The position numbers were made by a program, and so were the translations under genes. From IMG/VR virus record IMGVR_UViG_3300010412_000073, positions 1 through 25,139 of that record: a stretch of DNA of 25,139 nt. The stretch is one strand, 5' to 3'. Under the pieces are notes generated by a model. It was not told where the DNA came from, did no database searches, and saw nothing but the letters and a program-made list of their open reading frames with translations. The DNA comes from a virus. Below, one piece after another: positions 321 through 4,074 of this stretch; position 1 is the stretch's first letter; each line of letters opens with the position of its first letter.

Positions 321-535
321 TTGCTGCCTCCTTGGTTATAGTAGTGGTCTTTCATATCGAGTACCTGTTGCGGTGTATCTTCAATAACTTCACCAACTTC
401 ACCATCAACATCGGGCAGGTCATAACATGGATGGCATACGTCTTCACATCCAACGATGTTGTAACTCTCTCCCTTCCCAACGTTGATGTGCTTGCCGCAC
501 CTGTCACATGCCATAATCCAGGTCACGATGCTCAT
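317..535 (-). CDS. small zinc-binding-type protein, 72 aa
   Basis: The protein has Cys10-x2-Cys13 (CDRCG) followed by Cys30, Cys34 and Cys37 (CEDVCHPCYD), a spacing that fits a small zinc ribbon or knuckle. An acidic tail follows. The function is unknown; zinc binding is inferred from cysteine spacing only. The start overlaps the previous stop (ATGA), with AAGGG upstream. An internal Met at residue 8 is an alternative start that keeps all the cysteines. It is flanked on both sides by overlapping genes of the same minus-strand operon. Confidence 0.75.
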   Translation of the reverse strand: MSIVTWIMACDRCGKHINVGKGESYNIVGCEDVCHPCYDLPDVDGEVGEVIEDTPQQVLDMKDHYYNQGGSK

Positions 536-771
536 GACAGTTTCCCTTGCGCTTTCAGTTCCTCTACCTTGGATAACAAATCAATCAGCGTTGACACATC
601 AATCAATTCAATGCTGATTCCCTTCTTGGTTGGAGCCAAACTACTGCCGGTGTTGAACCACTTACGGATGTCAACGTATGCCTTGCCCTTAAACCTCTTC
701 ACGTTGACAATGGTGTTGCCGTTGAACTCACCAATCTGTACCGTCTGTCCTTCTTCAACGTTGATTTCCAT
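532..771 (-). CDS. hypothetical protein, 79 aa
   Basis: This is an unrecognised small soluble protein. Its first half is beta-like (VQIGEFNGNTIVNVKRFKGK) and its C-terminus is predicted helical (a leucine-rich segment followed by KVEELKAQGK). The ATG at 771 is preceded by AAGGAGG with good spacing. It is the first gene after the terminator at 798-834 on the same strand, so it needs read-through or a promoter I could not identify. Its stop overlaps the start of the zinc-binding-type gene. Confidence 0.75.
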   Translation of the reverse strand: MEINVEEGQTVQIGEFNGNTIVNVKRFKGKAYVDIRKWFNTGSSLAPTKKGISIELIDVSTLIDLLSKVEELKAQGKLS

Positions 772-797: not shown

Positions 798-834
798 AAA
801 AAAAGCGGGGTGGCGAGCCGTAGCCCACCACCCC
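798..834 (-). terminator. rho-independent terminator (minus strand)
   Basis: The arms GGGGTGG (807-813) and CCACCCC (828-834) form a GC-rich stem. On the minus strand this is followed by GC and then a run of seven T (798-804 on the plus strand as A). It lies just after the stop of the 18-codon ORF and before the gene at 532-771. It would end or attenuate transcription of the upstream minus-strand genes. Confidence 0.8.
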
Positions 835-840
835 ATCTCT

Positions 841-1037: not shown

Positions 1038-1265
1038 TTAAAACTTGAATTCAAACTGATGGTTTGCCAGACTGTCCTTGTATAACTTGAACAGCATGTC
1101 CGATATGAACTGAACCGGCTGTCCCAGTCTGATTGCGTTGTTGATTGTTGACCCGTAGTTGCCCACGACCTCGTTGATTTCCTCCTGTTCCAGCTTGTAA
1201 TGATTCCCAAGCCTGTTGATTACCATCAAACGTTTCATGTCGAACAGTTCGTAATCAGGAATCAT
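1038..1265 (-). CDS. hypothetical protein, 75 aa
   Basis: This is an unrecognised small protein, likely helical, with no signal or membrane segment. Its start at 1265 forms an ATGA overlap with the stop of the gene at 1262-1534, and AAGGAGG lies four bases upstream. The operon context and codon use match its neighbours. A shorter ORF in another frame over the same stretch has no ribosome-binding site and was not annotated. Confidence 0.75.
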   Translation of the reverse strand: MIPDYELFDMKRLMVINRLGNHYKLEQEEINEVVGNYGSTINNAIRLGQPVQFISDMLFKLYKDSLANHQFEFKF

Positions 1266-1534
1266 GCGACCTCCTTGTCCTCGTGTTTAGCAACCCACGT
1301 TTCCAAGTCCATCATCAGCGGCCTGATGCCTGTCTTTGCAATAATCTCCCAGGCACGACCCAACAACCTGTTCTCCTCCCACACAGCCTTGATACCCCAA
1401 CGATAATCCAACGAATCCTTGTAGTGTTCGTTGATTATCCTCTGGTCATGTGTGTCGAACCTGTCCTTGAGACTATCACTCGACAACAACACACTCCCAA
1501 ACTCTCCACCCCAAACAAACCTATCATCCGTCAT
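1262..1534 (-). CDS. hypothetical protein, 90 aa
   Basis: This is an unrecognised soluble protein with many charged residues and tryptophans. Residues 45-75 (IKAVWEENRLLGRAWEII) look like an amphipathic helix. The start at 1534 is preceded by TTGGAGGT at good spacing. It is the first gene after the terminator at 1587-1616 and is coupled to the 75-residue gene by an ATGA overlap. No function can be given. Confidence 0.75.
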   Translation of the reverse strand: MTDDRFVWGGEFGSVLLSSDSLKDRFDTHDQRIINEHYKDSLDYRWGIKAVWEENRLLGRAWEIIAKTGIRPLMMDLETWVAKHEDKEVA

Positions 1535-1586: not shown

Positions 1587-1616
1587 ACAAAAAAAGGGGG
1601 AGATTGCTCTCCCCCT
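1587..1616 (-). terminator. rho-independent terminator (minus strand)
   Basis: A perfect 8-bp stem joins GGGGGAGA (1596-1603) and TCTCCCCC (1608-1615) with a 4-base loop. On the minus strand a run of seven T follows at 1589-1595. It lies just after the gene ending at 1622 and would end the most promoter-proximal minus-strand transcript. Confidence 0.85.
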
Positions 1617-1621
1617 CTCTG

Positions 1622-1891
1622 TTACTTGCCAACCGGAACCACCTTCACGCCGGCCTGAATCAGCTGCTTGAAGACATCTTTGTTGTCTTCACCAAGCCAT
1701 ACCATTCCGGCCTGCTCCTTCTTGCAACCCAGGAGCCTGCGGTTCATCGTGAGGCCCATCCACTCCGCACCCTCCTTACCTTTCCCGGTAAGAATGGTTA
1801 ACACCGAAGTGGCATCCTCAAACTTCTCAGGCTCCACGGTCTTCTGACTTGCAATCCTGTCCACGACACTCGCATAGTTAATCTTCTTCAT
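1622..1891 (-). CDS. hypothetical protein, 89 aa
   Basis: This unrecognised, probably mixed alpha/beta protein is the first gene of the minus-strand block. It has a basic start (MKKINYASVVDRI), a central segment with Met, Trp and one Cys (GLTMNRRLLGCKKEQAGM), and a C-terminal stretch LIQAGVKVVPVGK. I chose ATG at 1891 because GGAGGT is about six bases upstream. A GTG three bases earlier is possible but sits too close to that site. The gene is flanked downstream by a strong terminator and upstream by the structured control region, so it may form its own transcript. No function can be assigned. Confidence 0.75.
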   Translation of the reverse strand: MKKINYASVVDRIASQKTVEPEKFEDATSVLTILTGKGKEGAEWMGLTMNRRLLGCKKEQAGMVWLGEDNKDVFKQLIQAGVKVVPVGK

Positions 1892-1951: not shown

Positions 1952-1983
1952 TGAAAAATACTCTACCCCCACCCCCTGGGTTT

Positions 1984-2000
1984 GACCCCCACCGGGGGTC
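1984..2000. repeat. 7-bp inverted repeat in a C-rich tract
   Basis: GACCCCC (1984-1990) and GGGGGTC (1994-2000) flank the 3-base loop ACC. Two further C5 runs lie just to the left (1966-1970 and 1972-1976). No T-run follows on either strand. The function is unknown. Confidence 0.6.
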
Positions 2001-2062
2001 TCTATGTGACCACCCGATCTATATGGCTTCACCCAAAATAGTTTTTAAATGCTATAAATTGC

Positions 2063-2091
2063 TTGACTTTTAGTCATTTTTGTGTTATATG
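2063..2091 (+). promoter_or_regulatory. sigma70-type late promoter candidate
   Basis: TTGACT (2063-2068) and TATATG (2086-2091) are separated by 17 bases, with TG in the extended -10 position (2083-2084). The dyad TGACT-TTT-AGTCA (2064-2076) overlaps the -35 and could be an operator. Transcription would start near 2098, just before the terminator-like hairpin. This is the only good promoter I see ahead of the structural genes. Confidence 0.55.
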
Positions 2092-2110
2092 GCTTTGTAG
2101 AGAACAAATG

Positions 2111-2141
2111 GGCGTATCCAGGCATTGGGTACGCCTTTTTT
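2111..2141 (+). terminator. promoter-proximal terminator or attenuator
   Basis: GGCGTATCC (2111-2119) pairs with GGGTACGCC (2127-2135), nine pairs including one G-T, around a 7-base loop. Six T follow (2136-2141). It lies about 20 bases after the promoter and 16 bases before the small-terminase start. Unmodified transcription would yield an RNA of about 40 nt. It therefore looks like an antitermination or attenuation control point. Confidence 0.7.
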
Positions 2142-2156
2142 GTTGTTGGGAGGTCT

Positions 2157-2711
2157 ATGAGTAAATCCGCAGGTATGGCCGAGAAGCACTACAAGGCCAT
2201 CAAGATGCTCGTGGAGGCGGAGTCAAGCACGGAGCAAATCGCTAAGTCCTGCGGTATCTCAACGGATTACCTCTACGATCTGATCGAAGGCTCTCCCAAA
2301 GCAGCACCTTTGTCCTACCTTTTCAAATCAGAACTACAAAAACAGCTATCGCAATCACACAAAGACCTCCATAAACTAACAAAAGAGTGCAAAAAGATAG
2401 CAATCGAACTCTTGAAGGATCGTGTGATTGAGATCAAGAAGTTGAAGAAGAGGCCAACGAAGGAGCTTGTTAGTATCGTCAACGCGTTGAATAAGGCCAC
2501 ACCCAACGTTGAGATAGGCCAGTTTAACCAGTTTAACCAGATGACACCACAGGAGTTAAGTGTTGAATACCGTAGACTCATATCCCTGGGAACAGGAAAA
2601 GTTGTCGGAAGAGCAATTCCTGACTCTCCCAAGGGAACTCCAAGAACGCTATCTGACGCTCTTAGCGCAAGGCATCGCCTTATCGAAGAGTCAGAGGATT
2701 CGGACGTATAA
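2157..2711 (+). CDS. terminase small subunit (putative)
   Basis: A 184-residue protein sits directly before the large terminase. Residues about 20-45 (TEQIAKSCGISTDYLYDLIEG) form a helix-turn-helix typical of DNA-recognition domains in small terminases. A basic helical middle (about residues 65-105) fits oligomerisation, and residues near 125-133 contain a FNQFNQ repeat. In the cell it would recognise the packaging site on phage DNA and recruit the large subunit. I chose ATG at 2157 because GGGAGGT precedes it; an upstream GTG at 2082 would put the promoter and terminator inside the coding region. The last 152 bases overlap the large terminase in another frame. Assignment rests on position and the helix-turn-helix, not on a recognised family signature. 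Confidence 0.75.
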   Translation: MSKSAGMAEKHYKAIKMLVEAESSTEQIAKSCGISTDYLYDLIEGSPKAAPLSYLFKSELQKQLSQSHKDLHKLTKECKKIAIELLKDRVIEIKKLKKRPTKELVSIVNALNKATPNVEIGQFNQFNQMTPQELSVEYRRLISLGTGKVVGRAIPDSPKGTPRTLSDALSARHRLIEESEDSDV

Positions 2712-4074
2712 GCCTCACGACAAGCAGGAGATGTTCCACTTGTCCCAGGCGAAGACTCGTGCGATATTCGGCGGCAACCGAACCGGCAAGACCACAGCCG
2801 GAGGCATGGAGTTTCTCTTCCACATCACAGGGGTGTACCCAGACTGGTATCCTACGGAAAAAAGGCTCCATGGTAAGGTGATAGGCCGTATTTGCGCCAC
2901 AGACCTCCAGAAGGGCGTGGGAGAGGTAATTATACCGTTTCTGGAGGAGTGGCTGGACGCAAGCATAGTTCTTCGCAAGTGGCGAAATCCCATCGGAATA
3001 CCTACCAAATGGACATTAAAGAACGGAAATCAGTTTGACATCTTGACTTACGAGATGTCAACCGAACAGTATGAGGGGTGGAGGGGCCATATTGCATGGT
3101 TTGATGAGCCTCCGCCGAGAGATAAATACATCGCAACCCTTCGTGGGTTGGTTGACTTCCAGGGACGAGATTGGCTCACCCTTACCCCTCTTACTCAACC
3201 ATGGATATACGACGACATCTACACCAACGCTGATCCTGAAGTTTTCGTTGTAACGTGTGATATCCGTCACAACCCCTACCTGACAGAAGAAGCAATCAAG
3301 AACTTTGAGAAGATATTGACCGAGGACGAGCGTGAAGCACGTCTTCATGGCCGGTTCATGCACCTTTCCGGTCTCGTATACAAAGAGTTCGACCCAATGA
3401 TCCACATCTGTGAACCTCCCAGGGTCAAAGACTACTGGACGAAGTACATGGCCATTGACCCTCATGAGCGTACTCCTACGGCAGTTTTGTGGATGGCTGT
3501 TGATCCAAAGGGTTTCATGTGGATTTATGATGAATTATGGCTGAAAGATATGGACATTGAGCAAATTGCTCATGCGATCCTGGCTCAGGAGGGCAAGATG
3601 ACTCCTCAGATCAGGCTGATTGACCCGCACAACGACAAGGACAACGTTGCGGCGGGTGGATTCAACATCCGAAAAGAACTGATGCGCCACGGTGTGTACA
3701 CAGAGCGGGCAAATTCTGATCCATTCCTTGGTAAAGCCCGCATACGGCAGGCGTTAAAGCCTCTGTATTCTCCCACGACTAACCAAGCTACTCCCAATCT
3801 CAGGATTTCCCGCTTGTGTACACAGACCATTTATGAGTTTCAGCATTATGTTTATGACGAATACCGAAGAAACAAGGATGAGTACGATCTGAAGGAAGTT
3901 GCCAAGAAGAAGAACGACCATTTCATGGATTGTTTGAAATATATCTTCAACTACGACCCCAGATACATCGAACCTGAGTCAGAAGAGGCCGATGTTCCCC
4001 AGTATAAGGGGGAATACACGAAATACCCGGCAAAGCCGGTAAGTTCTGGGTCATACAGGAGCTTGGTGGAATAA
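2560..4074 (+). CDS. terL: terminase large subunit (ATPase/nuclease)
   Basis: This 504-residue packaging motor drives DNA into the prohead and cuts it. Walker A is GGNRTGKT (71-78), Walker B is IAWFDEP (178-184, with catalytic Glu183), and the coupling motif is LTLTPL (206-211). The C-terminal RNase H-like nuclease shows MAIDPHE (298-303), IDPHNDK (354-360) and a late DHFMDCLKY acidic motif. The chosen start is GTG at 2560, with AGGAG four bases upstream. It lies inside the small-terminase gene, giving a 152-base overlap. The N-terminal PRELQERYLTLL looks genuinely coding, but a TTG start within the next 60 bases cannot be excluded. Confidence 0.93.
   Translation: MLNTVDSYPWEQEKLSEEQFLTLPRELQERYLTLLAQGIALSKSQRIRTYKPHDKQEMFHLSQAKTRAIFGGNRTGKTTAGGMEFLFHITGVYPDWYPTEKRLHGKVIGRICATDLQKGVGEVIIPFLEEWLDASIVLRKWRNPIGIPTKWTLKNGNQFDILTYEMSTEQYEGWRGHIAWFDEPPPRDKYIATLRGLVDFQGRDWLTLTPLTQPWIYDDIYTNADPEVFVVTCDIRHNPYLTEEAIKNFEKILTEDEREARLHGRFMHLSGLVYKEFDPMIHICEPPRVKDYWTKYMAIDPHERTPTAVLWMAVDPKGFMWIYDELWLKDMDIEQIAHAILAQEGKMTPQIRLIDPHNDKDNVAAGGFNIRKELMRHGVYTERANSDPFLGKARIRQALKPLYSPTTNQATPNLRISRLCTQTIYEFQHYVYDEYRRNKDEYDLKEVAKKKNDHFMDCLKYIFNYDPRYIEPESEEADVPQYKGEYTKYPAKPVSSGSYRSLVE

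Follow-up and report, generated by a model that had tools for sequence, protein, structure and literature searches.

Late transcription in phages lambda and 21 is organised around a late promoter (pR' in lambda, PR' in phage 21), a short leader, an intrinsic terminator (tR') and the late operon beyond it, and depends on the antiterminator Q. Lambda N-tL1 and the put/nut systems belong to the early type of antitermination, and nut, put and riboswitch systems are all RNA-loaded. A further combination of a promoter with a close terminator is found in Pseudomonas aeruginosa, where the sigma-70 promoter PalpB is followed by a terminator, tB, that begins 54 nt past the start and is bypassed through the promoter-bound antiterminator AlpA (PMC7969949, PMC9371919). 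The literature also places the factor site of both Q and AlpA between the -35 and -10 elements, with a -10-like pause in the initial transcribed region (PMC6606751, PMC9371919), and describes the two proteins as sharing no sequence similarity (PMC7969949, PMC9371919).

The locus analysed here lies in an IMG/VR phage record of 25,139 bases (hereafter the window), which derives from an uncultured phage. An earlier note had likened its layout to lambda pR'-tR', and the likeness holds: a late promoter is followed by a real terminator, and the arrangement is kept in most relatives. The window pair would work like lambda pR'-tR' but cannot be classed as one, as no Q homologue was found, no -10-like pause element is enriched, and the promoter is situated at the left genome end, directly upstream of terS. 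A promoter-proximal antitermination switch is nevertheless the best reading of the pair. Neither this lineage nor a left-end promoter-terminator gate like that of P1 was found described in a literature search that covered few subscription papers.

The promoter-terminator pair and its conservation

The pair and the genes that follow it comprise these features of the window:

2063-2068, plus strand: -35 element TTGACT of promoter P1 (sequence; family alignment, 51/62)
2064-2076, no strand assigned: dyad TGACT-TTT-AGTCA over the -35 element, probably incidental, not conserved
2083-2091, plus strand: extended -10 element TG-T-TATATG of P1 (sequence; family alignment)
2097-2109, plus strand: predicted start and initial transcribed region (AACAAATGG ends at 2111)
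2110-2141, plus strand: intrinsic terminator upstream of terS, with hairpin 2110-2136 and T-run 2136-2141, kept in 38/51 loci
2148-2153, plus strand: ribosome-binding site GGGAGG of terS (sequence)
2157-2711, plus strand: terminase small subunit, first gene past the terminator (PHROG 2538, E 1.4e-4)
2560-4074, plus strand: terminase large subunit, start of the structural operon (PHROG 2; PF03237)

P1 reads TTGACT-17-TATATG (2063-2091), with TG at 2083-2084 and the -10 hexamer TATATG at 2086-2091; the hexamer matches at 4/6 positions, its last base being G, and the expected start lies at 2097-2099, about 7 nt past it. A generic scan of the window returned 18 promoters against 20.6 expected, which is chance level, and P1 was absent from its list because the -10 element has no final T. 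Since the window sequence alone cannot settle the promoter, relatives were examined. Homologues of the large terminase subunit (TerL) were sought in viral contigs, where a single protein found 63 relatives and a 12-row alignment 93, of which 80 were kept. The 129 loci with a TerL match were reduced to 79 by merging identical 600-nt stretches and to 74 by omitting 5 distant loci. Sufficient upstream DNA was present in 62 of the 74, and 52 promoters exceeded a score of 8; removal of L052, a false match, left 51, and the -10 element of L143 was placed by hand. The 11 loci with no promoter call include four contigs that start within the leader (L026, L038, L047, L139) and one that starts within terS (L027); the others (L006, L028, L039, L046, L052, L126) have, by reading, a different upstream sequence. 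The relatives are uncultured and their TerL proteins are 50-70% identical; a single TerL scan across 84,980 bacterial and archaeal genomes returned no relatives, and the exact promoter pattern had no match in viral contigs.

A promoter of the TTGACA-16/17-TATAAT type precedes terS in 51/62 loci, mostly with TG before the -10 element (the G is present in 40 of the 52 aligned promoters). The extended -10 promoter that the earlier note had read as facing the packaging and head genes is thus present in the window and has counterparts in the family; P1 is supported by this conservation among relatives with readable upstream DNA, and not by the generic scan. The family alignment contains no conserved spacer word between the -35 and -10 elements beyond the extended -10. 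The dyad over the -35 element, earlier proposed as an operator, is indeed present (p = 0.03 by shuffling of the window promoter), but as a conserved operator it was rejected: inverted repeats with arms of at least 5 occur in 15/49 promoters against 10.5 expected (P 0.055), which is no clear enrichment across the family. In L033, a relative with no terminator, a strong 8+8 dyad covers the spacer and -10 element and may be an operator.

The 9-bp hairpin that had been noticed soon after the start proved to be part of a longer stem of 11 pairs (2110-2136; outermost pair G-T; -17.3 kcal/mol), which stands about 12 nt past the expected start and is followed by the six T (2136-2141). For the region 2098-2156 the folding energy is -23.8 kcal/mol (z -4.05), and none of 200 shuffles was as good. 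The generic scan that missed P1 does list the hairpin among 42 terminator-like sites in the first 20 kb of the window, against 19.5 in shuffles. Promoter and terminator lie within 90 nt of each other twice in the window and never in 10 Markov sequences; the second such pair (minus strand, 6413), with a weak T-run, falls within the portal gene. The window's TerS is 34% identical to that of the relative L002.

Among the 51 relatives with a promoter, 38 have a terminator, that is, a strong hairpin and a T-run, which starts 40-68 nt past the -10 element. Ten dinucleotide shuffles per leader give an expectation of 7.6%, about 4 of 51. The hairpin of L032 lies inside terS and was excluded, which lowered the count from 39 to 38; L008 and L051 share a leader and L144 and L145 are copies, all of them retained among the 51, while L051 was omitted from the stem statistics, L051 and L145 from the inverted-repeat and leader-element counts, and one leader alignment that cut the 3' arms from the pair counts. 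The 37 stems counted are 10-19 bp long (median 14 bp, median -16.8 kcal/mol), and at least 5 T occur within 9 nt after the hairpin in 37/37. Stem letters vary but still pair: across a subset of 13, CG, GC, TA or TG stands at pair 4 and TA, CG, GC, AT or GT at pair 6. The hairpin starts 6-23 nt past the end of the -10 element in 37/38 leaders (36 nt in L003), so that, if transcription is taken to start 7 nt past that end, the RNA ahead of the hairpin amounts to about 16 nt or less in 37/38. Conservation of the pair reaches TerL identities of about 50%, and on this comparative evidence the pair is real.

In 13/51 relatives the promoter stands with no terminator; these are the clade L017, L020, L025, L032 and L033, part of another clade (L002, L007, L013, L019), L036, L042 and the L144/L145 copies. 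On the TerL tree the terminator state changes 6 times, against 11.8 with shuffled labels. We infer that the terminator is old in the lineage and was lost several times, a direction that depends on a tree with midpoint rooting only. Two clades differ further in their leaders. In L002, L003, L007, L013, L019 and L099, an outer stem of the form AAGC(G/A)AA.../...TTCGCTT (TTTGC in L003) stands directly before the start of terS; there is no clear Shine-Dalgarno sequence, and the inner terminator is lost in 4/6. In the clade of L017, L020, L025, L032 and L033, terS starts about 12-20 nt past the -10 element and is almost leaderless.

The fixed genome end and the two arms

P1 is directed inward from a fixed genome end that lies 40-244 bp away from it across the family. 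The window reads across the corresponding joint, left of which stands the right arm and right of which the left genome end; the leftward operon of the right arm includes the following features:

2006-2015, plus strand: fixed genome end or joint GTGAC/CACCC, between 2010 and 2011 (contig ends of relatives)
1622-1891, minus strand: first leftward gene, 89 aa, before the operon's terminator; no Pfam or PHROGs match
1594-1617, minus strand: strong terminator immediately past the end of the first leftward gene (-18.6 kcal/mol, T7)
1262-1534, minus strand: second leftward gene, past the terminator; possible distant member of the family found there (15% identity to that family's first row)
803-839, minus strand: second strong terminator within the operon (-28.6 kcal/mol)
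532-771, minus strand: PC4-like protein (PF02229, E 1.9e-13)

Of the contigs that end less than 300 nt upstream of the -35 element, 36/42 begin at the equivalent base, with (C/T)(A/C)CC; the four-letter words counted at these contig starts make up 3.5% of the other places there. Six contigs (the window, L022, L033, L035, L115 and L016) read across the joint as GTGAC/(C/T)(A/C)CC. Among five contigs longer than 49 kb that were read at both ends as single genomes, three have GTGAC at the right end (G001, G003 and G004, with these ends in L067, L073 and L074 reversed; not G002 or G019). Judged from these contigs, the joint is a defined genome end at one sequence, as in cos-type packaging. A first pattern for the joint motif was found in only 2/18 records, since the majority of contigs stop there. 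As far as contigs tell, joining a right end to a left end reproduces the joint exactly, without a base in common or a base lost, and the genome ends look flush. C-rich blocks (CCACCCCC-like; window 1955-2000) lie just inside the right genome end in most relatives read and are a possible packaging signal. A role for the terminator as an insulator of the joint from read-through was rejected: the right-arm genes run away from the joint, and the terminator is located downstream of the promoter, not upstream.

Downstream of P1, packaging and structural genes occupy about 30 kb, mostly on one strand. A promoter matrix built from the 51 P1 sites and run over 13 records at a cut-off of 12.5 detects P1 in 11 of them (it falls below the cut-off in G006 and G024). 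Seven of these 11, namely the window, G002, G003, G004, G005, G021 and G022, have no other rightward site at the cut-off along the stretch scanned after P1 (23 kb in the window, 31-36 kb in the other six), and one or two additional, weaker promoter-like sites occur in each of G001, G007, G019 and G020. By this measure P1 is usually the sole strong rightward promoter for the roughly 30 kb of structural genes, and since other rightward promoters are few, those genes would be reached mainly by transcripts passing the terminator. The promoter, the terminator, their conservation and this scarcity are all read from sequence and comparison. A second rightward promoter, P2, lies past the structural genes in the nine genomes read (G001-G004, G006, G019-G022), and its leader contains, by reading, terminator-like hairpins in 4/9 (G001, G002, G020, G022). 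There are two such hairpins in the P2 leaders of G001 (31974; L066:11974) and G002 (36404, terL orientation); both also have an ATG 7 nt past the -10 element, so a leaderless short ORF is possible.

On the leftward side, a terminator follows the first gene in 8/11 right ends, against 0.5 in shuffles; the hairpin is weaker in G001 and G002 (-5.5), and in G004 no hairpin has a T-run. In the right ends read by eye, about 40 nt separate this terminator from the next gene, a gap that, by its size and not by a promoter count, leaves little room for a new promoter. The matrix scan detected no P1-type promoter for the leftward operon near the right end, and a search of viral contigs with the first leftward gene returned no relatives. 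This order of first gene, terminator and remaining genes resembles early antitermination of the lambda N-tL1 and put/nut type; it differs in that no RNA site was recognised here and the first-gene proteins have no family match in the searches made. The window also contains a long G+C-rich hairpin (1917-1951), followed on the minus strand by an A-run and then by the ribosome-binding site of the first leftward gene; it was rejected as a terminator, as its flanks fit neither direction.

Proposed regulated read-through of the terminator and its alternatives

We give an even chance to the proposal that the promoter-terminator pair is an on/off gate of the late operon, opened by antitermination. P1, a strong promoter of the sigma-70 type just inside the left end, would initiate constantly, and RNA polymerase would halt about 40-50 nt on at the intrinsic terminator, leaving the genes for TerS, TerL, capsid and tail off. 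A factor that the phage encodes or recruits would then modify the polymerase late in infection, so that the terminator is passed. Because the layout is kept in most relatives, the structural proteins are probably gated by read-through and made only once something lets RNA polymerase past the terminator; efficient termination, regulated read-through and the existence of a factor we infer. The factor would most likely load onto DNA of the promoter or onto the polymerase as it initiates: with so little RNA before the hairpin, a nut, put or dfn-like RNA site or a riboswitch hardly fits, and a promoter-loaded factor is therefore likelier. The 13/51 relatives with a promoter and no terminator indicate that the gate is dispensable or replaceable.

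The earlier note had thus correctly identified a late promoter with a real terminator, and its further expectation of an antitermination factor found no recognised antiterminator in 11 records to attach to. Profile searches for a Q-type protein with PF06530 and PF03589 matched 0/11 records, their positive controls being matched; PF06323 also matched 0/11, with its positive control silent as well. The NusG profile PF02357 matched 0/11 records and 10/14 controls; several of the records are fragments, the window record itself being a 25-kb fragment from which roughly half of the phage genome is missing, and a paralogue may also reside in the host. As AlpA and Q are themselves unalike in sequence, an absent homologue is weak evidence, and an unrecognised factor is quite possible. 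AlpA requires a -10-like pause sequence; here such hexamers (A2, T6, at least 4/6 matches) occur in 10/37 leaders against 15.7 expected and are not enriched, and reading of the window's initial transcribed region revealed none with A2 and T6. The window's AACAAATGGG, which resembles the lambda pause element AACGATGGG, was rejected as a sigma-dependent pause element, A2/T6 hexamers being below expectation in the leaders. The small minus-strand proteins, first suggested as the factor by proximity, are candidates by position only, now slightly stronger ones in view of the terminator that comes after the first leftward gene in 8/11 right ends. These positional candidates are the products of window 1622-1891, 1262-1534 and 1038-1265 and the PC4-like protein at 532-771. 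The 1038-1265 protein has a sub-threshold match to a ParB-type HTH (E 7.5e-4). The PC4-like protein is also present in G001, and a homologue of the G001 protein in G002 and G005; a search of 8 further records, run with no positive control, returned no matches.

The alternative that a leaky terminator merely holds transcription from a strong promoter at a steady low level, with no factor involved and with the leftward layout only setting a ratio, seems to us unlikely but deserves weight. Such a fixed attenuator agrees with the lack of a recognised antiterminator, with the loci that have no terminator, and with the leftward operon, where a gene stands before the terminator as ratio setting would lead one to expect. 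The rightward side, however, has no gene ahead of the terminator to favour, and structural genes, which usually need much product, all lie past a strong terminator with few other promoters to serve them.

It is less probable that the stem simply guards the late mRNA against decay, or directs its processing, with no termination at all. The hairpins are stable and located at the very 5' end, and in clade A, often lacking the terminator, an outer stem (AAGCGAATA..TATTCGCTT) is kept before terS; yet a U-tract is needless for protection, and T-runs follow all of the hairpins counted. Slightly more doubtful still is a small-RNA gene whose product would be the terminated RNA of about 45 nt, serving as packaging RNA, decoy or regulator. 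An abundant short RNA would be expected and the site adjoins the packaging end; CAA(A/G)TGG precedes the stem in 11/37 leaders against 0.1 by shuffling, mostly in one clade. Stem and loop letters are not conserved, however, and an Rfam search of the window at gathering score had no match, which also means no known leader RNA or riboswitch. Translation-coupled attenuation through a short upstream ORF starting near the 5' end is very improbable and was rejected: some leaders do have an NTG about 12-17 nt past the -10 element, but the 16/25 such frames that cross the hairpin compare with 12.4/25 expected by shuffling, 12/37 leaders lack such a start, and several frames end, by reading, after 4-6 codons.

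Proposed closing of the genome ends and the wider reading

The right arm encodes a divergent protein with a predicted Ku core fold, found in 7/7 records that hold this arm (G001-G005, G019, G020) and lacking a Pfam match; the window record stops short of the part with this gene. Its homologues are located as follows:

L067:2884-3540, minus strand: Ku-fold homologue
L068:8401-9060: Ku-fold homologue
L073:2348-3010, minus strand: Ku-fold homologue
L074:7547-8266: Ku-fold homologue
L077:2219-2884, minus strand: Ku-fold homologue
L154:4086-4742, minus strand: Ku-fold homologue
L156:2181-2840: Ku-fold homologue

An AlphaFold model (pLDDT 71) gave a Foldseek E of 6e-8, with Ku-containing entries occupying all of the 50 rows listed, and its best match in a VIA comparison was Mycobacterium tuberculosis Ku (Z 15.3, rmsd 2.0, 112 aligned), SPOC-domain chains reaching Z 12. 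The Pfam Ku profile PF02735 matched 0/11 records at E up to 1, and the protein is therefore named Ku-fold and not a PF02735 member; profile A3 run against PDB sequences gave one chance-level match, so that Ku is visible by fold comparison only. A protein with an ATP-dependent ligase domain (PF01068; L067:6520-7344, minus strand, in G001) is conserved in the same 7/7 records. Near the ligase, the right-arm operon also contains an AAA_5 ATPase (L067:5375-6520, minus strand) and a VWA-domain protein (L067:3683-5218, minus strand), present in 7/7 and 6/7 right-arm records, respectively.

The Ku-fold model, the ligase and a joint with no shared or missing base suggest that the phages carry out end joining of their own to seal genome ends that are flush or nearly so. 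Corndog-type mycobacteriophages are alike in having fixed ends and a phage Ku protein; Corndog has a 4-base 3' extension and a phage Ku, and appears to recircularise by end joining (PMC4351075). The present phages differ in their flush-looking ends and in having a gene for an ATP-dependent ligase within the cluster that encodes the Ku-fold protein.

Taken together, a broader picture can be offered only tentatively, and we regard it as doubtful: this uncultured lineage would gate both arms by promoter-proximal terminators beside a flush fixed joint, would use an antiterminator unlike Q and NusG that acts with no sigma pause, and would close its ends with the Ku-fold protein and ligase, a side finding that may matter more than the gate. 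The promoter and hairpin together occupy less than 80 bp and make a small unit for reporter work. If the gate is regulated, a lineage of 74 non-redundant terL loci uses antitermination for its late switch with no factor known to present families; if true, the P-tR' design would reach well beyond the lambdoid and Pseudomonas examples, and would indicate RNA polymerase modifiers of a new class.
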